Shown here one piece after another: positions 24,082-58,721 of a stretch of 64,000 nucleotides of DNA. Position numbers and translations under genes: made by a program. The notes beneath the pieces were generated by a model that was not told where the DNA came from, did not search any database, and saw only the letters and a program-made list of their open reading frames with translations. The stretch covers positions 1-64,000 of IMG/VR virus record IMGVR_UViG_3300014501_000017; one strand, 5' to 3'. The stretch's first letter is position 1, and the number at the start of each line of letters is the position of its first letter. Source of the stretch: a virus.

Positions 24082-24723
24082 ATGTATATTGTTTATAAAT
24101 TAATTGCTCCTAATGGTAAACCTTATATTGGATATACTGGCAATTCTTTAACAAAAAGATTATCAGGTCATAAGGCTTATGCATTTAATAATATAAAAGG
24201 AAGAAATACAAAAATGTCTAGAGCGATTAGAAAATATCCTCTAGAAAAATGGTCTAGTGAAATATTATTTGAATGTGAAACGATGCATGAAGCATGTATC
24301 AAGGAACAAGAATTAATTAAAAATTTTGATTCTATTCAACGTGGATATAATACATCTATCGGCGGTGAATCTAGTTCTTTAGGTTGTCATTTTAAATTTT
24401 CCAAATCACACAAGAAAAAATTATCATTGGCGGCTAAAAAAAGATTTGAATTGATAGACCAAAGAAAAGAAAAAAATCCATTTTGGTCTGGATGGTGGGT
24501 TACTCCGTGGGGAAAATTTACTACTATATTAGAAGCTACAACTAATTCTCCAGTTAAAGCAACCTTACCAACAATTTATGGATTATGTAAGAAAAATAAA
24601 AACATTATTAGTAAATTTTCTTTAAGAAAAGGAAAATTTGTTACAAAAAATGATATAGGTAAAACATACAAAGAAATTGGTTTTGATTTTATTCCTTGTA
24701 TGAATATAACTTGTGAGGTATAA
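24082..24723 (+). CDS. GIY-YIG homing endonuclease between genes 19 and 20
   Basis: A 213-aa free-standing homing nuclease. The GIY-YIG catalytic module is visible as YIVYKLIAPNGKPYIGYTG, a basic helix (LTKRLSGHKAYAF), then RAIRKYPLEKWSSEIL, the glutamate in CIKEQELIKNF and GYNTSIGGESSS. The C-terminal part (WWVTPWGKFTTILEATT) resembles DNA-binding tails of Seg-type nucleases. It sits precisely between tail tube and portal genes. Its AT-rich, lysine-rich codons differ from those of gp19. Its stop lies just 5 bases before the non-ATG start of gene 20. No intron core surrounds it. Confidence 0.88.
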   Translation: MYIVYKLIAPNGKPYIGYTGNSLTKRLSGHKAYAFNNIKGRNTKMSRAIRKYPLEKWSSEILFECETMHEACIKEQELIKNFDSIQRGYNTSIGGESSSLGCHFKFSKSHKKKLSLAAKKRFELIDQRKEKNPFWSGWWVTPWGKFTTILEATTNSPVKATLPTIYGLCKKNKNIISKFSLRKGKFVTKNDIGKTYKEIGFDFIPCMNITCEV

Positions 24724-24728
24724 TTACC

Positions 24729-26414
24729 CTGGAATTATTCGGATTTAAAATAACTCGAAACAAAGATGAAGAACAAGATAATCTTCAAGCTATTGTTCCT
24801 GAATCTAGTGATGACGGGGCCGTTGTTGTTCAAAACGGGGGAGTTACTGGCTCCTATGTTGACCTAGATGGAACCATCCGTTCCGAAGCTGAATTAATAA
24901 ACAAATATCGTGAAATGTCAGAAAATCCTGACATGGAATTGGCCATCGATAACATCACCAATGAAGGTGTTGTTCATGAAGAAGGCAAAGAAATTATTGA
25001 TATCCTTCTAGACAAGACCGGCCTACCAGATAAAATCAAAGAAATTCTTATAGATGAATTCAATTATGTTAAATTACTTTTTGAATTCGATTCACAGGCA
25101 TATGAACTATTCAAACGTTGGTATGTAGATGGCCGTCTTTATTTCCAAGCCCTTATTGATCTAAAAAATCCAGAAGAAGGTATTCAGGAAGTTCGTTATA
25201 TTGACCCACGTAAGATAAGAAAAGTTCGTGAAGTTAAGGTTATTCGAGATGGAAGAACTGGCGCACCAATGACCAAGACAGTTGCTTCATATTATGTTTT
25301 TAATGAAAAAGGATTAGTAACACCAGGTGGAAGTACCAATGCCGGTTCTAATTATGGAACCAGTTCTGGAGTAAAGATTTCAACTGATTCAATTATCCAT
25401 GTAACATCTGGTATCACATCAGCCAAGGGTGATATCATTCTTTCTTATCTTCATAAAGCTATTAAACCACTTAACATGTTAACTTCTCTTGAAGATTCTC
25501 TAGTAGTATATCGAGTATCAAGAGCACCAGAAAGACGTATATTTTATATCGATATTGGTAATCTTCCTAAAGCAAAGGCCGAACAATATGTAAAAGATAT
25601 GATGACCAAGTTTAAGAATAAGGTTGTATATGATTCTGCAACTGGTCAGATTCGTGATGATAGAAAGTTTATGACTATGTTGGAAGATTTCTGGTTGCCC
25701 CGTCGTGAAGGTGGCCGTGGAACCCAAATTGAAATTCTACCCGGTGGACAGAACCTTAATCAGATTGATGATATCATTTTCTTCCAGAGAAAATTATTCC
25801 GTTCATTAAATGTACCTATTACTCGTCTTGACCCAGAAGCCATGTTTAACTATGGTCGTGCCAATGAAATAACTCGTGATGAAGTTATTTTCATGAAGTT
25901 CATTGATCGTCTAAGACAGAAGTTTTCACAACTGTTTAAGGCAACCATGGGTAAACAGTTAATCCTTAAGAACATAATGACTCCTGATGAATGGGAGTCT
26001 ATCCAGCATCTAATTAGATTTAAATATGCATCTGACTCATATTTCGAAGAATTAAAGAATGCCGAGATTATGACTGAAAGATTCACCCTATTGGAAACAG
26101 CTATGCCTTATGTTGGAAGATATTATTCAAATGCCTTTATCCGTAAGAAGCTTCTATTCCAGACAGATGAAGAAATCAAGCATGAGGATACAGAAATAGT
26201 AGCAGAATTGAGTAATCCTCTATATAACCAGCCGGTTAATATGGAAGGAATGCCTATTGCTGCCAATGCTGTTGACCCAAATAATCAACCAGACCCTAAT
26301 CCACCTCCACCACCAGCACCAAAGGCGGCTCCAGCACCAAAACCACAGCCGGTTCAAGTAACTGTTAATGTAGATGGAAAGAAAGGAAGCAAAAAGCCTA
26401 AAAAAACTAAATAA
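24729..26414 (+). CDS. 20: Portal protein gp20 with an apparent CTG start
   Basis: The portal, the dodecameric ring through which DNA enters. The first ATG in frame (24915) lies well inside the conserved region. Upstream codons are open back to a TGA at 24714 and read ELFGFKITRNKDEEQDN and, later, RSEAELINKYREMSENPD (T4: TRELIDTYRNLMNN). No ATG, GTG or TTG exists in that stretch; CTG at 24729, 9 nt after GAGGT, is the best start, giving 561 aa (T4 524). Conserved motifs include RWYVDGRLYF, YIDPRKIRKVREV, VYRVSRAPERRIFYIDIGNL and NYGRANEITRDE. The proline/lysine-rich C-terminal tail is unusual. Confidence 0.92.
   Translation: MELFGFKITRNKDEEQDNLQAIVPESSDDGAVVVQNGGVTGSYVDLDGTIRSEAELINKYREMSENPDMELAIDNITNEGVVHEEGKEIIDILLDKTGLPDKIKEILIDEFNYVKLLFEFDSQAYELFKRWYVDGRLYFQALIDLKNPEEGIQEVRYIDPRKIRKVREVKVIRDGRTGAPMTKTVASYYVFNEKGLVTPGGSTNAGSNYGTSSGVKISTDSIIHVTSGITSAKGDIILSYLHKAIKPLNMLTSLEDSLVVYRVSRAPERRIFYIDIGNLPKAKAEQYVKDMMTKFKNKVVYDSATGQIRDDRKFMTMLEDFWLPRREGGRGTQIEILPGGQNLNQIDDIIFFQRKLFRSLNVPITRLDPEAMFNYGRANEITRDEVIFMKFIDRLRQKFSQLFKATMGKQLILKNIMTPDEWESIQHLIRFKYASDSYFEELKNAEIMTERFTLLETAMPYVGRYYSNAFIRKKLLFQTDEEIKHEDTEIVAELSNPLYNQPVNMEGMPIAANAVDPNNQPDPNPPPPPAPKAAPAPKPQPVQVTVNVDGKKGSKKPKKTK
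26407..26413 (+). promoter_or_regulatory. Late promoter motif CTAAATA
   Basis: CTAAATA overlaps the stop of gene 20 and lies 20 nt before the ATG at 26434, with an AGAGGA ribosome site between. Confidence 0.5.
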
Positions 26415-28564: not shown

Positions 28565-30151
28565 ATGAATTATTTTCGTAATATAATAACAACTTTACTG
28601 TTTGTTTTACTTTCTCTATCGCTATGTTCTATAGTTGGGGCTGAGACACGAGTTCGTGGAATTTCTAATACTCATAATCCAGATGCCAGTCCTATAGTAT
28701 GTACAGTTCCTTCTGGAACTCAAAATGGAGACTTGACACTTTATTTTCTATCTCAAATTGGTACAGGTGGTTTTTCAACCCCATCAGGTTTAGTTGCTGT
28801 TAATTCAGAATCTACACAAGGAAATCTTTCAATATTCTCTCGTGCTGACAGTAGTGAACCAGCAAGTTATTCATTTACATTGGTTGGTGGTGTTGCAAAT
28901 GTAATATGTTCTGGTGTTACTTTATATGATAACGGTGGTAATACACTTACTGCTGATGGAACTCAATCTCAAGTACAAACAAATACAGGAAGTGTAGGTA
29001 CAGTAACACCATCTAGTTTAACTGCATCAGTTACATGGGATGCAGCAGTGGTATTTGCTCAACAATGGGAAAATAGTACAGGATTAATTCAAACACCTAT
29101 AGGTTATCAGAATATTTCTCAAATACCTAGTAGTGGGTGGACACCTTATAATCTAGTTCTACAAAATCAACCATTATCCGGAACTATAACTTTTGAAGGA
29201 ATGACTGCATTAACTGGTAATAGTTCATGGAACTATGCTTCTATTCTTATAAAGGGTGCTAGTGCTCCTGTTCCTGATTATCGTTTAAGAAATGCTACAA
29301 TAGCCGGTTCAAGTTCTGGAACTACTTGTACTCCAACAACCATGTCAGGAATTACAACTAATGATTTATTAATTGATTGTATTTCATCAGTAAGTACAAC
29401 AGCAATTACTTGTCCATCCGGATTTTCTAATTTATCTCATAATGAAACAACTGCTGCGGTAGCTGCATGTACTAAAACTGCTGGTGGTTCCGAAACTGGA
29501 AGTTATTCAGCAACAACTGGTAATTCAAATAATCAATGCGAATTATTAGATTTTTATGATGCGGGTGGGTCTACTCTTATAACTCATAGTGGTTCATCAA
29601 ATACCGCTACATCATCTACATCAATTACCGGTTCTAGCATAACACCAGCTGCGGCAACCGACATTGCTGCATTATGTGCATTTGCTTATCCTGGTTTAAG
29701 TTCTCATATAATTATAGGTACTCCTTTGTGGAATGAACTTTTAAATGGTAATGGAAATACATCAGCATCTTCGTTATTTGGTGGTGGATATTATCGGGCA
29801 GGACAGACAACAGCATTAACTCCACCTACAGTAAGTACGTATGATGCTACAGCCGCAACATTTAAATCAGTTACAATGGATATAGGACCAAATGCGACAG
29901 CCACAGCTACCGCAACCGCAACGGCCACTGCTACCGCAACAGCTACTGCGACTGCTACTACTACTGCAACAGCAACGGCCACCGCAACTGCAACGGCCAC
30001 AGCAACGGCCACCGCAACTGCAACTGCAACAGCAACGGCCACCGCAACTGCAACAGCAACGGCCACCGCTACGGCAAAACCTTGGTTAACTATGCATATG
30101 TGGGATGAAGGATCAATTAAACATCAACCATCAGCACATCCAGCAGCTTAA
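28565..30151 (+). CDS. Secreted protein with Thr-Ala repeat tail (528 aa)
   Basis: The N-terminus MNYFRNIITTLLFVLLSLSL then CSIVGAE looks like a Sec signal peptide, unusual among head genes. Two similar beta domains follow (about 30-220 and 230-440), each built around a non-polar N-G-D-L-T-L-Y/N-D-L-L-I-D strand and G-S-x-S-Y/P-A-S-Y-S-F segment, like modules in bacterial surface and fibre proteins. Residues 444-504 are almost pure Thr-Ala dipeptides. The tail ends with KPWLTMHMWDEGSIKHQ, rich in W, M and H. No ribosome site or late promoter is evident. Probably exported to the periplasm or cell surface; role unknown. Confidence 0.65.
   Translation: MNYFRNIITTLLFVLLSLSLCSIVGAETRVRGISNTHNPDASPIVCTVPSGTQNGDLTLYFLSQIGTGGFSTPSGLVAVNSESTQGNLSIFSRADSSEPASYSFTLVGGVANVICSGVTLYDNGGNTLTADGTQSQVQTNTGSVGTVTPSSLTASVTWDAAVVFAQQWENSTGLIQTPIGYQNISQIPSSGWTPYNLVLQNQPLSGTITFEGMTALTGNSSWNYASILIKGASAPVPDYRLRNATIAGSSSGTTCTPTTMSGITTNDLLIDCISSVSTTAITCPSGFSNLSHNETTAAVAACTKTAGGSETGSYSATTGNSNNQCELLDFYDAGGSTLITHSGSSNTATSSTSITGSSITPAAATDIAALCAFAYPGLSSHIIIGTPLWNELLNGNGNTSASSLFGGGYYRAGQTTALTPPTVSTYDATAATFKSVTMDIGPNATATATATATATATATATATATTTATATATATATATATATATATATATATATATATATATAKPWLTMHMWDEGSIKHQPSAHPAA
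29894..30076 (+). repeat. Thr-Ala dipeptide-coding repeat (61 codons)
   Basis: About 30 tandem GCN-ACN units. All four codons of both residues are used, so the 6-bp repeat is kept at the protein level but varied at the DNA level. The tract is far richer in G+C than its surroundings. Confidence 0.9.
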
Positions 30152-30154
30152 ATT

Positions 30155-31897
30155 ATGAAAAAAATCTGGAATACAGTAATATTTTTCTTTGCTTTATTTT
30201 TTTTATCTATTTCTGCTAATGCTATAACTGTTCCTTTAGTTGCAACTTCAAATGTTCATGGTTTTTATACTTCTCCATTTTCTATGCCGCTACCTACTGG
30301 ATATAATTCTGCAAATAATTATACAATTATAGGTGGTGGTATTAGTAATGGAGCCTCTGCTTGTCCTGTTGGATGGACTATGTTTGTAGTACAAAATTCA
30401 ATAGGAATTGCATGTGGAAGAATGTATCAGAGTGGAGACCCATCTTCTGTTACTTTACCTGCTGATGGTACAGTTGATATAGTTGGTGGCACATTTAGTA
30501 ATGTAAGTTCAGCCAAACCTTATAGTTATGTTAATGATACTGTAGAGGTACAGCCAGTACAATATGGTCAAAATCCATTATTAGCAAGAGCACCATCAGT
30601 AGTTCCTACAGTTACAAATGGAACATTAGTTGTTTTATATGCTGCTGGTAATAATGCTGGTTCTACTGTATTTACTATAAATGGTGCTTTAACTTCTGCT
30701 GTTACCTCTAATATTTTTGAAGGTGCCAATCTAAGTTATCTATCTATTGGTTCAACTACCACTCGCACTGGTGATTATACTGCTACATTTAATCAATATA
30801 CTCATACTGGTAATTTTGGATTACAAATTTTATTACAACCACAATCTGGTGGAACAGCAATACCATCACCAGCTTTAAATGGACCAACTATTGCTGGTAT
30901 AGACACACAAAATGAACAAGAAGAAGATAGCGGACAGGCATTTATATATCCATCTCTTGTTGATGCACTTCCAACTGATCTTGCAGTAATAACTTATACT
31001 GGACAATGGGGTACTCAATTAGTTCCTAATGGTGATATATATCAAGGCGACCCACCTGATAATCATCCATCTCTATTAACACCAGGATTTGCGGATTTAT
31101 TAACTAGTCAACCATTGACTAATACTATAGGTTCTGATCCAGATCGTTGTCCTCAACCTCTTCTATATGGACCGGCCTGTTATGTAAGTCATGTAGTAAC
31201 CGGTTATGTTTCTGGAATAGGTGCGAATCCATATATTGTACTTCAAGTAGGAACTTCATTAGTTTATATTCGTTCTGCTGTATATTGGAGAAGTATTGAT
31301 GGTACAACTGTAGTGGATCAATCTGGAGTAAATCAAAGTACAAGTCTTGTACTTACTCAAACTTCACCTTCATTAACACCAACTGGCGTTCCTGAAGTAT
31401 TGGAATCTTCTTTTGGTGCAAGTACAGGAACATCTAATTTAACTTTACTTCCAATTACTTCACCTTCTGGATTAGATGAAATTGAAGGGCTTTGGTCATC
31501 AGGATCAAATCAAGAATGGGCTATTGTAAATGGTTGGAAACAATTAACTACTACCAGTGCAACTAGTACATACTCTACAACTATTAGTACTAATGCTGGT
31601 GATATGGCTGGATTTAGTGTTCTTCTTGAGGATGTTGTATCATCATCAACACCAACGCCTACTGCGACTGCGACAGCAACGGCAACAGCTACTGCGACGG
31701 CTACTCCTACAGCAACAGGAAGTGGCGGAACACCAACGCCTACTGCAACTGCAACTGCAACTGCAACTGCAACTGCCACAGCCACTGCGACGGCAACAGC
31801 CACAGCTACGGCTACACCAACAGCAACACCAACAATTACTCCTACACCAGCACCTTTTTGGTGGCCACACATGCATTTGCATTCTTTAAATAACTAA
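30155..31897 (+). CDS. Secreted protein with Thr-Pro/Thr-Ala repeat tail (580 aa)
   Basis: A second exported protein directly after the first (3-base gap). MKKIWNTVIFFFALFFLSIS then ANAITVP is a clear Sec signal peptide with an ANA cleavage site. The body holds two or three beta domains (for example GTLVVLYAAGNNAGST near 150 and LPTDLAVITYTGQWGT near 270) resembling those of its neighbour, so the two look like diverged duplicates. Residues 499-567 alternate TPTPTATA and TATATA with one GSGG break. The end, PFWWPHMHLHSLNN, again combines W with M/H residues. Function not known; a surface-exposed or lysis/exclusion role is conceivable. Confidence 0.65.
   Translation: MKKIWNTVIFFFALFFLSISANAITVPLVATSNVHGFYTSPFSMPLPTGYNSANNYTIIGGGISNGASACPVGWTMFVVQNSIGIACGRMYQSGDPSSVTLPADGTVDIVGGTFSNVSSAKPYSYVNDTVEVQPVQYGQNPLLARAPSVVPTVTNGTLVVLYAAGNNAGSTVFTINGALTSAVTSNIFEGANLSYLSIGSTTTRTGDYTATFNQYTHTGNFGLQILLQPQSGGTAIPSPALNGPTIAGIDTQNEQEEDSGQAFIYPSLVDALPTDLAVITYTGQWGTQLVPNGDIYQGDPPDNHPSLLTPGFADLLTSQPLTNTIGSDPDRCPQPLLYGPACYVSHVVTGYVSGIGANPYIVLQVGTSLVYIRSAVYWRSIDGTTVVDQSGVNQSTSLVLTQTSPSLTPTGVPEVLESSFGASTGTSNLTLLPITSPSGLDEIEGLWSSGSNQEWAIVNGWKQLTTTSATSTYSTTISTNAGDMAGFSVLLEDVVSSSTPTPTATATATATATATATPTATGSGGTPTPTATATATATATATATATATATATATPTATPTITPTPAPFWWPHMHLHSLNN
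31649..31855 (+). repeat. Thr-Pro/Thr-Ala coding repeat (69 codons)
   Basis: ACN alternates with GCN or CCN codons in two blocks separated by a Gly-Ser-Gly-Gly break. It parallels the tract in the upstream gene, with mixed synonymous codons. Confidence 0.88.
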
Positions 31898-49023: not shown

Positions 49024-49593
49024 ATGATCTATTTAATAACTAATAAAATAAACGGAAAACGATATGTAGGAAAGGCAAAAAATCTTAAGGCTAGATGGTA
49101 TCAGCATTGTTGGAGTTCTAAAAATAGTTCCCAAACATATATACATCGAGCTATAAGAAAATATGGAAAGCGCAATTTTAAAATAGATTTTGTCTGTGAG
49201 GGTTATGATAAAGAAGAAGTTGAACAGGTAGCGTTGTTATTGCCAGAATATAATATGACAATTGGCGGTGATGGCGGAGATACTTCCAAATCTCCAAATT
49301 ATAAAACAGCAATCCAGTTGCGTGATATGTCTGGCAAAAATAATCCAATGTGGGGAAAATTTGGAAAGGATAATCCAAATTTTGGACAAATTAGAGGCAA
49401 GACTCCAAAAATTAGTGAAGGTAAGTCAAAACAAAAATGGAAAATAATAACTCCAGAAGGAAAAACATTAATTGTTTGTAATTTAGAAAAGTTTTGTAAT
49501 GATCTAGGATTTAGTGATTCAACTCATATGTATGCTGTTGCTAAAGGAAAACGTAATCATCATATGGGATACAAAGTGAAGAAATGGAGATAA
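49024..49593 (+). CDS. GIY-YIG homing endonuclease before gene 44
   Basis: A 189-aa nuclease. The catalytic module reads MIYLITNKINGKRYVGKAKN, then basic LKARWYQHCWSSK, RAIRKYGKRNFKIDFVCEG and the glutamate in DKEEVEQVALL. NUMOD3-type DNA-binding repeats follow (SGKNNPMWGKFGKDNPNFGQ), and the C-terminus (WKIITPEGKTLIVCNLEKFC) matches a homing-nuclease DNA-binding tail. It lies 4 bases before gene 44, a common location for free-standing homing genes in T4-like replication clusters. Confidence 0.9.
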   Translation: MIYLITNKINGKRYVGKAKNLKARWYQHCWSSKNSSQTYIHRAIRKYGKRNFKIDFVCEGYDKEEVEQVALLLPEYNMTIGGDGGDTSKSPNYKTAIQLRDMSGKNNPMWGKFGKDNPNFGQIRGKTPKISEGKSKQKWKIITPEGKTLIVCNLEKFCNDLGFSDSTHMYAVAKGKRNHHMGYKVKKWR

Positions 49594-55356: not shown

Positions 55357-56874
55357 ATGGCTAATTTTTATACTAATGTATGCATGTTGAAAGGAAAGAT
55401 TCTTGTTAGAGCCATTAAAGATGGTAAACGAGTTTCTTATTCAGTTAATTATCGTCCATATCTTTTCATGCCTGCTAAGGGCAAACAAACAAAATTTAAA
55501 ACAATTCGTGGTGGTTCTGTCGATAAGATCGATTTTGAGAATCATTGGGCAATGAAGCAATTCATTGACAGATACAAGGATATTCAGGATTTTGAATATT
55601 ATGGGATGACGATGCCCATATACACCTTCATTAACGATAACACTCCTTCTTCGATTAAATATAATGCCGATGAAATTCGTGTAGTATCACTTGATATTGA
55701 AGTAGATACCAAAGATGGGTTTCCAAATCTCAATCCAGCGGGTGCCTCTTATGGAACCAATTATGCCAATAAAGAAATAACTGTTATTGGTCTTAGAAGC
55801 AGAGGAAAAAATCTGGTTTTTGGAACTAAACCTTATAAAACATCCGATCAAAATACAACATACATGCAGTGTGAGAATGAAGCAGAAATGTTGAAGGATT
55901 TCCTTATTGTTTGGAATGATAAGGATTTCTGGCAACCTGATATTGTAACTGGTTGGAACGTAGGTGGATTTGATATACCATACTTAGTTCGTCGTATTGA
56001 AAAGGTAATTGGAGAGAAGTATGCTAAGATGTTATCTCCATGGAGAAATTATACATTTAGAGAATATCAGGCCGGATTTGGCCATACCCAGATAGAGTAT
56101 GACTTGTATGGTATTGCTGTATTAGATTATATGGCTCTATACAAGAAGTTTTCTTTTACTCCACAAGAATCTTATAAGCTTGATACTGTAGCTCAATCAG
56201 AACTTAAAGAAGGAAAACGTAGCTATTCCCAATATAAGAATATGCAGGAATTCTATGAGAAAGATTATCAAGGATTTATTGATTATAACATTCAGGATAA
56301 CGTTCTAGTAGATAAGCTTGAAGAGAAGAAAGGATTCATTAAACTTGTAATGGCCATGGCCTATGATGCCAAGATTAATTTCAAGGATTGTTTCACTCCT
56401 ACTCGTGTATGGGATGTTATTATCCATAATCATCTTTTTGCACAAGGAATTGTAGTTCCTAGAATGAAAGACCCAGAAGGTGGTTCTATTGAAGGTGCCT
56501 ACGTTAAGGAACCTATTAAGGGATTACATAAGTGGGTAGTATCGTTCGATTTAAATTCACTTTATCCTCATTTGATTCAGATGTATAATATTTCTCCTGA
56601 AACTTTTATAGGTAGTACTGATCGTAGATTATCAGTTGAAGATGTACTTGATGGAGAATTTAATAATCCAATATACAAGAAGTATTATGATAAGGGTTAT
56701 ACCATAGCTACTCCCGGTCATATCTTCGATAAGAAGACTGTAGGGTTCCTTCCTACTATTATGAAGAAAATGTATGATGATAGAGTAGTATGGAAGAAAC
56801 AGATGATTGAAGAGAAAAAGGAAATTCAATTAATAGAAGAAGAAATGAAAAAGAGGGGTATAAATATATCATAA
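55357..56874 (+). CDS. 43A: DNA polymerase gp43, N-terminal piece (exonuclease and motif A)
   Basis: A 505-aa first piece of the family-B replicative polymerase. The 3'-5' exonuclease carries Exo I SLDIEVD (D113, E115), Exo II GWNVGGFDIPYL (near 200) and Exo III YNIQDNVLVD (near 310). Palm motif A VSFDLNSLYPHLIQMY lies near 395, and FLPTIMKKMYDDRVVWKKQM starts the fingers. It stops (TAA) at KKRGINIS, where a homing endonuclease cassette begins. The missing continuation is encoded from 57594. No ribosome site precedes the ATG; it sits 6 nt after an extended -10. Confidence 0.93.
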   Translation: MANFYTNVCMLKGKILVRAIKDGKRVSYSVNYRPYLFMPAKGKQTKFKTIRGGSVDKIDFENHWAMKQFIDRYKDIQDFEYYGMTMPIYTFINDNTPSSIKYNADEIRVVSLDIEVDTKDGFPNLNPAGASYGTNYANKEITVIGLRSRGKNLVFGTKPYKTSDQNTTYMQCENEAEMLKDFLIVWNDKDFWQPDIVTGWNVGGFDIPYLVRRIEKVIGEKYAKMLSPWRNYTFREYQAGFGHTQIEYDLYGIAVLDYMALYKKFSFTPQESYKLDTVAQSELKEGKRSYSQYKNMQEFYEKDYQGFIDYNIQDNVLVDKLEEKKGFIKLVMAMAYDAKINFKDCFTPTRVWDVIIHNHLFAQGIVVPRMKDPEGGSIEGAYVKEPIKGLHKWVVSFDLNSLYPHLIQMYNISPETFIGSTDRRLSVEDVLDGEFNNPIYKKYYDKGYTIATPGHIFDKKTVGFLPTIMKKMYDDRVVWKKQMIEEKKEIQLIEEEMKKRGINIS

Positions 56875-56898: not shown

Positions 56899-57612
56899 AT
56901 GTATTTTATGGTTTATAAAATAAATAATTTAAAAAATGGTAGATATTATATTGGAGCACACAAGACTGATAATTTAAATGATGGATATATGGGTTCTGGA
57001 ATTGCAATTAAACGTGCAATAAAAAAATATGGCAGGAAAAACTTTAGGCGAAAAATAATTAAACAATGCAAGACGGAATTGCAAATGTTTGCTTTTGAAA
57101 AAAAGATCATAGAAGAATGTATAGATGATAATCCATGTTATAATATTAAACAAGGTGGAATTGGTGGTTGGACTTGGATTAACAAACATAGACATTTATT
57201 TAAAAATCCTATGCTTAATCCAATAATTGCTAATAAAGTAAGTGTAGCTTTAAAAGAAAAATTTCGTACAGATAATAATTATAGAAAAAAATTACTTAAA
57301 CATTGTGAAAATTTGGCTAAAATGGGGGCTGAATTTAATAAAGGACGAAAGCGCCCATATCATGCTAAATTTATGAAAGAGTGGAGCAAAAATAATTGGA
57401 ATAAAAATAGAGAAAAAATGAGAGATTCGTTATCATCATGGTTTAAGGTTGTATCTCCAAAAGGAAAAGTGTATAATACAAATAGATTGGGTGATTTATG
57501 TGATAAGTTTGGATTATCTTTTGTTACAATGTGGTGGGCTAGTAAAAGAAACAAACAAGTGAGTAAAGGAAAAGCAAAAGGTTGGATATGTCAACAGATT
57601 ATTCAAAATTAA
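56899..57612 (+). CDS. GIY-YIG-type homing endonuclease splitting gene 43
   Basis: A 237-aa nuclease of the GIY-YIG/Seg type: MVYKINNLKNGRYYIGAHKT then DNLNDGYMGSG, AIKKYGRKNFRRKIIKQ, the glutamate in FAFEKKIIEE and CYNIKQGGIGGWTW. The middle is basic and helical; the C-terminus FKVVSPKGKVYNTNRLGDLC matches homing-nuclease DNA-binding tails. It lies inside the polymerase gene. Its last 25 bases overlap the restart of the polymerase frame at 57588. Splitting of gene 43 next to a homing gene is known in some Aeromonas T4-like phages. Confidence 0.88.
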   Translation: MYFMVYKINNLKNGRYYIGAHKTDNLNDGYMGSGIAIKRAIKKYGRKNFRRKIIKQCKTELQMFAFEKKIIEECIDDNPCYNIKQGGIGGWTWINKHRHLFKNPMLNPIIANKVSVALKEKFRTDNNYRKKLLKHCENLAKMGAEFNKGRKRPYHAKFMKEWSKNNWNKNREKMRDSLSSWFKVVSPKGKVYNTNRLGDLCDKFGLSFVTMWWASKRNKQVSKGKAKGWICQQIIQN

Positions 57613-57725
57613 GTGATAAGGAGTTAATAGAGCGCCATAAAATCGGAATTAATCAAATTGATTATTGCAAAAATATGCAACATCAATTGAAGATTACTTT
57701 AAATTCCGGTTATGGCGCTCTTTAG
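57588..57725 (+). CDS. 43B: DNA polymerase gp43, motif B segment ending at in-frame TAG
   Basis: An ATG with an AAGG site 6 nt upstream opens a 45-codon frame: STDYSKLSDKELIERHKIGI, NQIDYCKNMQHQ, then LKITLNSGYGAL and TAG. K-x-x-x-N-S-G-Y-G is motif B of family-B polymerases, the fingers helix that contacts the incoming nucleotide. From the TCA at 57591 the sequence directly continues the first piece (INIS + TDYSKL). After TAG the same frame goes on as CTA-TGT-AAT and NRYFRWFD. T4 has GALGN at this point. It may be joined to the next piece by ribosome hopping. Confidence 0.8.
   Translation: MSTDYSKLSDKELIERHKIGINQIDYCKNMQHQLKITLNSGYGAL
57629..57721 (+). other. Long RNA hairpin inside the polymerase frame
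   Basis: A perfect 12-bp GC-rich stem (57629-57640 with 57710-57721) encloses a 7-bp stem (57644-57650 with 57702-57708), a 7-bp stem (57656-57662 with 57682-57688) and a 5-bp stem (57665-57669 with 57676-57680). All are nested, about 31 pairs in total. The outer stem ends one base before the TAG. Confidence 0.75.
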
Positions 57726-57728
57726 CTA
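57720..57728 (+). other. Candidate stop-codon hop site CTT-TAG-CTA
   Basis: A TAG stop flanked by two leucine codons that one leucine tRNA could read. A 6-nt hop from CTT to CTA would skip TAG and give ...G-A-L-C-N-R-Y-F..., with the same residue count between L and N as in T4 gp43. Confidence 0.55.
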
Positions 57729-57779
57729 TGTAATAGATATTTTCGGTGGTTTGACCCAAGACTTGGAGAATCGGTTACC

Positions 57780-58721
57780 TTGTCTGGTCAGGTTTCTATT
57801 CGTTGGATGGAAACGCGGATGAATGATTTCTTGAATAGAAGAAACAAGACTACCGGATATGACTATATTATTGCCTGTGATACAGATTCAATGTATCTTA
57901 GATTAGGAACTATGATTGAAGGTGGTTGGTCTGAAAGAGTAGATCAGAAATATAAAAATATGACACCAGATGAAATTACATCTGATATTGATAAAATATG
58001 TGAGGAAGAATTCACCCCATTTATTGAAAAATCTTATAAAGAATTAGCCGAGTATGTCCATGCCTATAATCAGACAATGATTATGAAGCGTGAGACAATT
58101 GCCAATAAGGGTATTTGGACCGCTGCCAAACATTATGCCTTGAATGCTTATGATATAGAGGGTGTTCGTTATAAAGAACCTGAGCTAAAGATAACTGGTT
58201 TGGAGTGTGTTCGTTCTTCTACTCCATCGTCCTGTAGAGTTTCTATTAAGGAAGCTATCAAGGTTATCATGAACAAGGAACAGGATGATTTAATTAAATT
58301 CATAGAAGAATTCAAGCAAAAGCATAAAACTCTTCCTATATCAGAGATAGCTTTCCCACGTTCGGTTAATGGTTTGACAAAATGGGCTGATTCTGCTAGT
58401 ATATACAAGAAAGGAACTCCTATTCAAGTAAAGGGATCAATTATTTTCAATAAGTTATTGAAAGAAAAGAATCTTACTAACGAGTATCCTTTAATTGTTG
58501 ATAGTGAGAAGATAAAATTTGTTTATCTCAAACTTCCTAATCATATTAAAGATAAGGTAATTGCTTTCAATGGTATTGAACCACCTAAAGAGTTTGATAT
58601 TGAGCCTTATGTAGACCATGAAATAATGCTTAATAAGAGTTTTATAGAGCCTCTTCATAGTATTCTTGATGTAATTGGATGGAAGACTGAGAAGAGAGCG
58701 ACCTTAGAGGATTTTTTCTAA
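57780..58721 (+). CDS. 43C: DNA polymerase gp43, C-terminal piece (motif C, thumb)
   Basis: Homology in this frame begins already at 57729 (CNRYFRWFDPRLGESVTLSG), but the only conventional start after TAG is TTG at 57780, with GGAG 11 nt upstream, giving 313 aa. It holds QVSIRWMETRMNDFLN, catalytic motif C IIACDTDSMYLRL (near residue 35), AKHYALNAYD (K-x-Y-type motif), LKITGLECVRSSTP in the thumb, and a terminal LEDFF clamp-binding motif. Joined to 43A and 43B by the proposed hop, total length would be about 880 aa (T4 gp43 has 898). Confidence 0.9.
   Translation: MSGQVSIRWMETRMNDFLNRRNKTTGYDYIIACDTDSMYLRLGTMIEGGWSERVDQKYKNMTPDEITSDIDKICEEEFTPFIEKSYKELAEYVHAYNQTMIMKRETIANKGIWTAAKHYALNAYDIEGVRYKEPELKITGLECVRSSTPSSCRVSIKEAIKVIMNKEQDDLIKFIEEFKQKHKTLPISEIAFPRSVNGLTKWADSASIYKKGTPIQVKGSIIFNKLLKEKNLTNEYPLIVDSEKIKFVYLKLPNHIKDKVIAFNGIEPPKEFDIEPYVDHEIMLNKSFIEPLHSILDVIGWKTEKRATLEDFF

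Follow-up and report, generated by a model that had tools for sequence, protein, structure and literature searches.

A stop codon between synonymous codons in motif B of split phage gene 43 polymerases: a putative ribosome hop linked to a GIY-YIG homing endonuclease gene

Introduction

Among phages, gene 60 of T4 has for many years stood alone as a well-studied example of efficient bypassing. It is part of a split essential gene with the homing endonuclease gene (HEG) mobA upstream, and the bypassed insert lies in the downstream cistron, where a stop codon stands immediately 3' of the take-off codon and the landing codon beyond the gap is matched to it. The insert is thought to protect against the nuclease (PMC5009743, sections 9 and 42). 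Synthetic stop-hops in Escherichia coli, in which matched codons flank a stop codon, have been described as well (Weiss et al., 1987, cited in PMC5009743). By 2016, no in-frame stop-hop had come to light in nature (PMC5009743), and the literature searched contained neither a later report of one nor any account of bypassing in gene 43. In Magnusiomyces mitochondria, short inserts termed byp elements are corrected at the level of translation by bypassing (PMC5009743, section 42).

The polymerase gene 43 is split in Aeromonas phages, and the products 43A and 43B co-purify with polymerase activity (PMC2988022). In Aeromonas phage 25, the HEG seg43 is located between 43A and 43B, and a group I intron (Rfam RF00028) interrupts motif B between T and TGGGT of GGT-GCG-TTG-GGT. 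The HEG of phage 25 reportedly cuts intron-free 43B (Petrov et al., 2010, J Mol Biol 395:457).

The gene 43 loci described here share with T4 gene 60/mobA the split essential gene, the upstream HEG, the insert in the downstream cistron, the stop directly after the take-off codon and the matched landing codon; one of them (L154) even has the GGA-UAG of gene 60. They differ in the gene and site affected, in the gap (2-8 nt versus about 50 nt), in the take-off codon, which specifies Leu, Gly or Ala, in landing codons that are synonymous but not always identical, and in the large number of natural variants. A take-off stem-loop or structure of the gene 60 type was not found in the gene 43 hop loci. 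With phage 25 they share the gene order and a homologous HEG (45% within the N-terminal 97 aa), but at the same nucleotide site of motif B phage 25 carries an intron and these loci a micro-insert that is presumably bypassed. The artificial E. coli constructs resemble them in that 9 nt yield one amino acid and in +5 and +6 hops. The byp elements differ more strongly, as they are mitochondrial, occupy 81 sites in many genes, present the A site with an unused codon instead of a stop, and act independently of mRNA context.

Results

The analyzed DNA, referred to as the window, covers 64,000 bases of an IMG/VR record that is 64,322 bases long and derives from a T4-like phage. Its gene 43 resembles cyanophage and related gp43 proteins, with about 40-54% protein identity, and is organized in the order 43A, GIY-YIG HEG, 43B, with the motif B insert inside the second cistron (Table 1). 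The initial annotation, which was made from the sequence alone, had overlooked this split, but its reading of the frame, of the TAG and of the C-N downstream was confirmed as described. Motif B reads AAG-ATT-ACT-TTA-AAT-TCC-GGT-TAT-GGC-GCT-CTT-TAG-CTA-TGT-AAT and encodes K-I-T-L-N-S-G-Y-G-A-L, the TAG, the CTA and then C-N-R-Y-F-R-W-F-D-P-R-L-G-E. The corresponding GA(L/I/V)GN is uninterrupted in gp43 of P-SSM2, P-SSM3, DSL-LC02, DSL-LC03, S-H34 and ACG-2014f, and compared to these proteins the only disturbance of motif B in the window consists of the two extra codons TAG-CTA. Beyond the stop, the C-terminal part of the polymerase is open, intact and well conserved.

Table 1. Features of the split gene 43 in the window.
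Feature	Position	Strand
43A, 505 aa, N-terminal cistron of the polymerase with the exonuclease domain and motif A (DLNSLYPHL)	55357..56874	+
TATAAATA, T4-type late promoter consensus within the 3' end of 43A, ahead of the HEG	56859..56866	+
GIY-YIG HEG (SegE-like), 237 aa, homologue of the HEG that phage 25 has at this locus	56899..57612	+
43B, part before the stop, from ATG (overlapping the HEG end) through the putative take-off codon	57588..57722	+
GGAG, -103 from the stop, kept there in all relatives with the putative hop	57620..57623	+
Putative take-off codon CTT (Leu)	57720..57722	+
Putative coding gap, stop codon TAG	57723..57725	+
Putative landing codon CTA (Leu), final codon of the 6-nt insert	57726..57728	+
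43B, part after the putative hop, restarting with TGT-AAT (C-N), 330 aa, C-terminal LEDFF	57729..58721	+
Motif C (DTDS), 3' of the stop, required for catalysis	57879..57890	+

The window HEG encodes a Seg-type GIY-YIG protein in which the domain with its conserved catalytic positions is present. It scored 25.6 bits with the Pfam family SegE_GIY-YIG (cut-off 25), and the conserved columns are common to the HEG of phage 25. The late promoter octamer TATAAATA was also present upstream of the HEG in most related loci. No tRNA genes were found in the window, and no Rfam RNA reached the gathering score there; a group I intron had no match in the window. TAG terminates eight of the 64 plus-strand ORFs of ≥ 100 aa, which upholds the earlier statement that it serves as a normal stop elsewhere in this DNA. 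A reassigned TAG code was rejected because of these eight ORFs and because relatives have TGA at the same spot.

To find relatives in IMG/VR, motif B followed by TAA or TAG was used as a DNA pattern, which gave 11 contigs, all in gene 43 and all with TAG, whereas TAA was never found. The same pattern with TGA added one further contig, and a HEG profile, which is blind to the insert, recovered additional 43A-HEG-43B loci. Scans with the single sequences of 43A or 43B yielded no relative, the exact pattern of the window site had no match, and a match among genome contigs (L147) was dismissed as chance. Altogether, a stop was inserted at the same place of motif B in 24 IMG/VR contigs and the window, and these 25 were grouped as 15 lineages with 11 different gap sequences (Table 2). 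Some loci stand under two identifiers, e.g., L135 = L148 and L144 = L149. No isolate with the cassette was present among the entries of the phage collection that were examined. The sequence around the site was identical across three samples in L136/L141/L143 and likewise in L156/L157/L158.

Table 2. Putative take-off codon, gap (lower case) and putative landing codon in the insert-bearing sequences.
Site	Sequences
CTT-tag-CTC	L135, L139, L140, L144
CTT-tag-CTA	L138, window
CTT-tag-CTT	L142
CTT-tagtga-CTC	L145
CTT-tga-CTT	L146
CTT-tagc-CTT	L137
CTG-tagcgaat-CTG	L136, L141, L143
GGA-tgactaa-GGT	L152
GGA-tagttt-GGC	L154, L155
GGT-ta-GGT	L156-L158
GGT-ta-GGA	L159, L160
GGT-tagtta-GGA	L161
GCG-tgacccgg-GCT	L176
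TCC-tagtt-ACC	L162, L163

The inserts are 5-11 nt long and occur in all three frames; that of L145 contains two stops (TAG-TGA). In all 25 contigs TAG or TGA stands 3' of the take-off codon, and the stop abuts this codon even in the loci found via the HEG, where no stop had been asked for. An intron RNA was not detected in L148, L162, L156, L136 or L176, whereas the positive control L015 gave a match. As a separate observation, several hundred nt further interrupt 43A in L138 and L137 (tblastn aligned 4-296 and 298-504 as separate pieces), indicating either a polymerase in three or more cistrons or another intervening element.

The codons flanking the gap are synonymous in 14 of the 15 lineages (Leu/Leu, Gly/Gly or Ala/Ala) and identical in five. 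The pairs observed were CTT/CTC, CTT/CTA, CTT/CTT, CTG/CTG, GGA/GGT, GGA/GGC, GGT/GGT, GGT/GGA and GCG/GCT. In these 14 lineages the first two bases always agree but the third often differs, which argues for selection on pairing with the same or a closely related tRNA and not only for fresh duplication. Based on base composition, the chance of 10 matches in 11 distinct gaps is about 4e-13, although the lineages share some history, being partly related via homing and therefore not fully independent. Agreement in the first two bases and in the amino acid is what re-pairing of a peptidyl-tRNA requires and thus supports a hop.

The length and content of the inserts support the same process. Those of 5, 7, 8, 10 and 11 nt shift the reading frame, and together with the TAG-TGA insert they show that neither readthrough nor a single frameshift can serve all family members, whereas a hop can. 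Skipping the gap and the landing codon would give GAL-(G/C)N, or GA-L-x-N in the Gly, Ala and Ser types, and the result is seamless in every case. The residue following the predicted hop is Cys in the window and L146 and G, A, S, T or V in the other relatives. Downstream of the landing codon, pN was 0.07-0.32 and pS 0.63-0.88, demonstrating strong purifying selection on this frame; this agrees with the inference that one protein is made from both sides of the gap.

Several points speak against a hop or limit it. The landings CTT to CTA, GGA to GGC and GGT to GGA demand one tRNA for both codons or relaxed wobble, and in L162/L163 (TCC to ACC) only two of the three bases agree. Bare stop-hops are inefficient in E. 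coli reporters, and protein or reporter data are lacking, so that both the hop and its efficiency are inferred. Nevertheless, a mobile HEG cassette whose motif B stop is crossed by a ribosome hop is the best explanation and, with a probability of roughly 0.87, a very likely one. The step from CTT over TAG to CTA that had been postulated for the window is supported, as an inference, by the codon matching and by the out-of-frame and double-stop inserts.

A candidate for a stimulatory element is the tetramer GGAG. Each of the 17 compared sequences has it about 105 nt ahead of the stop, at position -106 or -103 when counted from the base that follows the Leu codon. It is kept across four different preceding amino acids, is missing in three split but uninterrupted cyanophage 43Bs, and is still found in the HEG-less L136 lineage. 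Extended to AAAGGAGGANCTNATNGCGCNCC, the motif is restricted to nine contigs in the entire viral collection, each of which has a 43B with the putative hop. A conserved 5' hairpin around GGAG was not supported (mean z +0.38; covariation at shuffle level), and folding near the hop revealed no prominent RNA structure either (mean z between -0.5 and +0.4; hairpin covariation no higher than in shuffles). GGAG might stimulate the hop through the RNA or the nascent chain, or it might serve the HEG as a site on the DNA.

The insert is closely linked to the HEG. Where a HEG was present between 43A and 43B, motif B was interrupted in 19 distinct contigs, to which phage 25 with its intron can be added, and uninterrupted in two (L165, L173). 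Without a HEG, 120 loci were clean and three interrupted, the latter forming one lineage (L136/L141/L143) for which loss of the HEG is the simplest account. The clean loci were not sampled randomly, as most had been fetched by the motif pattern. In the two HEG-bearing loci without insert (L165 2074-2150, YGSLGN; L173 5747-5820, FGSCGN) the Ala codon GCN of the target is replaced by AGT (Ser), which is conceivably an alternative escape from cleavage.

Traces of homing were evident in the pairs L148/L149 and L162/L163, which are 94-100% identical over ~900 nt upstream of the insert and mostly 55-85% identical beyond this tract on both sides. The tract starts ~60 nt before the end of 43A, runs through the HEG into the beginning of 43B, and has its right break within a few bases of the insert, a boundary such as homing from a cut in motif B would leave. 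An adjacent HEG and movement with the insert as one end are what characterizes a mobile cassette, and both were shown, the former in 19 contigs and the latter in two pairs. That the HEG cleaves uninterrupted motif B and spares the interrupted one is inferred, as there are no cleavage data. The proposal that the insert guards a homing target is supported to this extent by the near-exclusive HEG linkage and by the tracts ending at the insert.

Discussion

We propose that the mobile cassette of gene 43 extends from the 3' end of 43A through the GIY-YIG HEG and the initial ~45 codons of 43B to the micro-insert in motif B, which forms its right end. The endonuclease would most likely cut the uninterrupted motif B (GGN-GCN-CTN-GGN-AAY) of related phages, and repair of the cut would copy the cassette into them, whereas in the carrier the insert would disrupt the target and confer immunity to the HEG. 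The insert is composed of a stop, between 0 and 5 additional nt and a final codon for the same amino acid as the pre-stop codon (net 5-11 nt), with TAG overlapping the landing codon in the +5 inserts. With the stop in the A site, the peptidyl-tRNA is predicted to quit the take-off codon, slide 5-11 nt and re-pair at the landing codon, leaving motif B seamless. In the window, tRNA-Leu would move from CTT over TAG to CTA, giving GAL-CN, and the hopped 43B may pair with 43A to a two-subunit polymerase, an assembly that is likewise inferred.

By its arrangement and mobility, the gene 43 family very likely represents a HEG-plus-bypass cassette, the second natural one besides T4 mobA/gene 60, with the hop itself inferred. 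A bolder reading, which we regard as likely as a whole, is that natural stop-hops form a widespread family, arose several times independently at a single nucleotide site and serve as the immunity part of a homing cassette, and that the HEG homologue of phage 25 travels with a self-splicing intron but that of this branch with a 5-11 nt insert removed by the ribosome.

Three other explanations were considered, all of them very unlikely. In the first, the polymerase consists of three pieces, with translation stopping at TAG and a third subunit (43C) initiating just downstream. In favor of this, 43A and 43B are already separate products, split gp43 works in Aeromonas phages (PMC2988022), and L136 has a GTG two codons past the landing codon. 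However, no ATG, GTG or TTG behind the stop is conserved in the family, and the first one in the window is a TTG 17 codons on, past conserved residues. The codons just after the landing codon (N-x-Y/W-F-R) are conserved, the synonymous landing codons would be unexplained, and the catalytic helix would be cut. The possibility of separate pieces raised in the initial annotation therefore held only in part: it is true of 43A/43B, but the break in motif B has no conserved start behind it.

According to the second explanation, a phage or host tRNA suppresses the stop and the product is GAL-X-L-CN. The insert of the window is indeed in frame with a single TAG, and a suppressor tRNA cannot be excluded in the unseen part of the phage genome, which is most of it given a record of 64,322 bases. 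On the other hand, no tRNA is present in the window, TAG closes the eight other ORFs mentioned above, and relatives also use TGA, TAG-TGA and the out-of-frame inserts, which readthrough cannot serve; amber suppression, another early alternative, failed for the latter reason.

The third explanation, a dead gene or an assembly error in which the insert is the scar of a nuclease cut or a lost intron and the contigs are non-functional, could appeal to scars being expectable at a site known for homing and an intron, but the insert recurs in 25 contigs, some identical across three separate metagenomes, the frame behind it is intact and has a pN well below its pS, and scars would not preserve synonymous flanking codons. 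The early suspicion of an assembly error thus failed, and the proposed comparison with related phages, in which uninterrupted relatives would have marked a dead variant, showed uninterrupted cyanophage gp43s but also 24 contigs with the same insert design, contradicting a dead variant for the family.

If a ribosome hop is accepted, 15 natural variants differing in codons, gap lengths and frames within one essential gene would allow take-off and landing rules to be read by comparison. Since relatives have either an intron, a hop insert or a point substitution at this one site, the idea that bypassing arises to protect against a HEG becomes testable. Gene callers split or truncate such polymerases.

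Two more GIY-YIG HEGs were found in the window, at 24082-24723 before gp20 and at 49024-49593 before gp44; together with the one in gene 43, this makes three within 64 kb that border or interrupt essential genes. The portal gene gp20 (24702-24920) lacks ATG, GTG or TTG at the proper N-terminus; its open frame starts with ATA-ATT-ACC-CTG-GAA at the end of the HEG at 24082-24723, and translation might initiate at ATA or ATT, where it would overlap the HEG stop. Furthermore, two adjoining large genes at 29791-31897 have long Ala-Thr and Pro-Thr-Ala repeat tails encoded by simple repeats.
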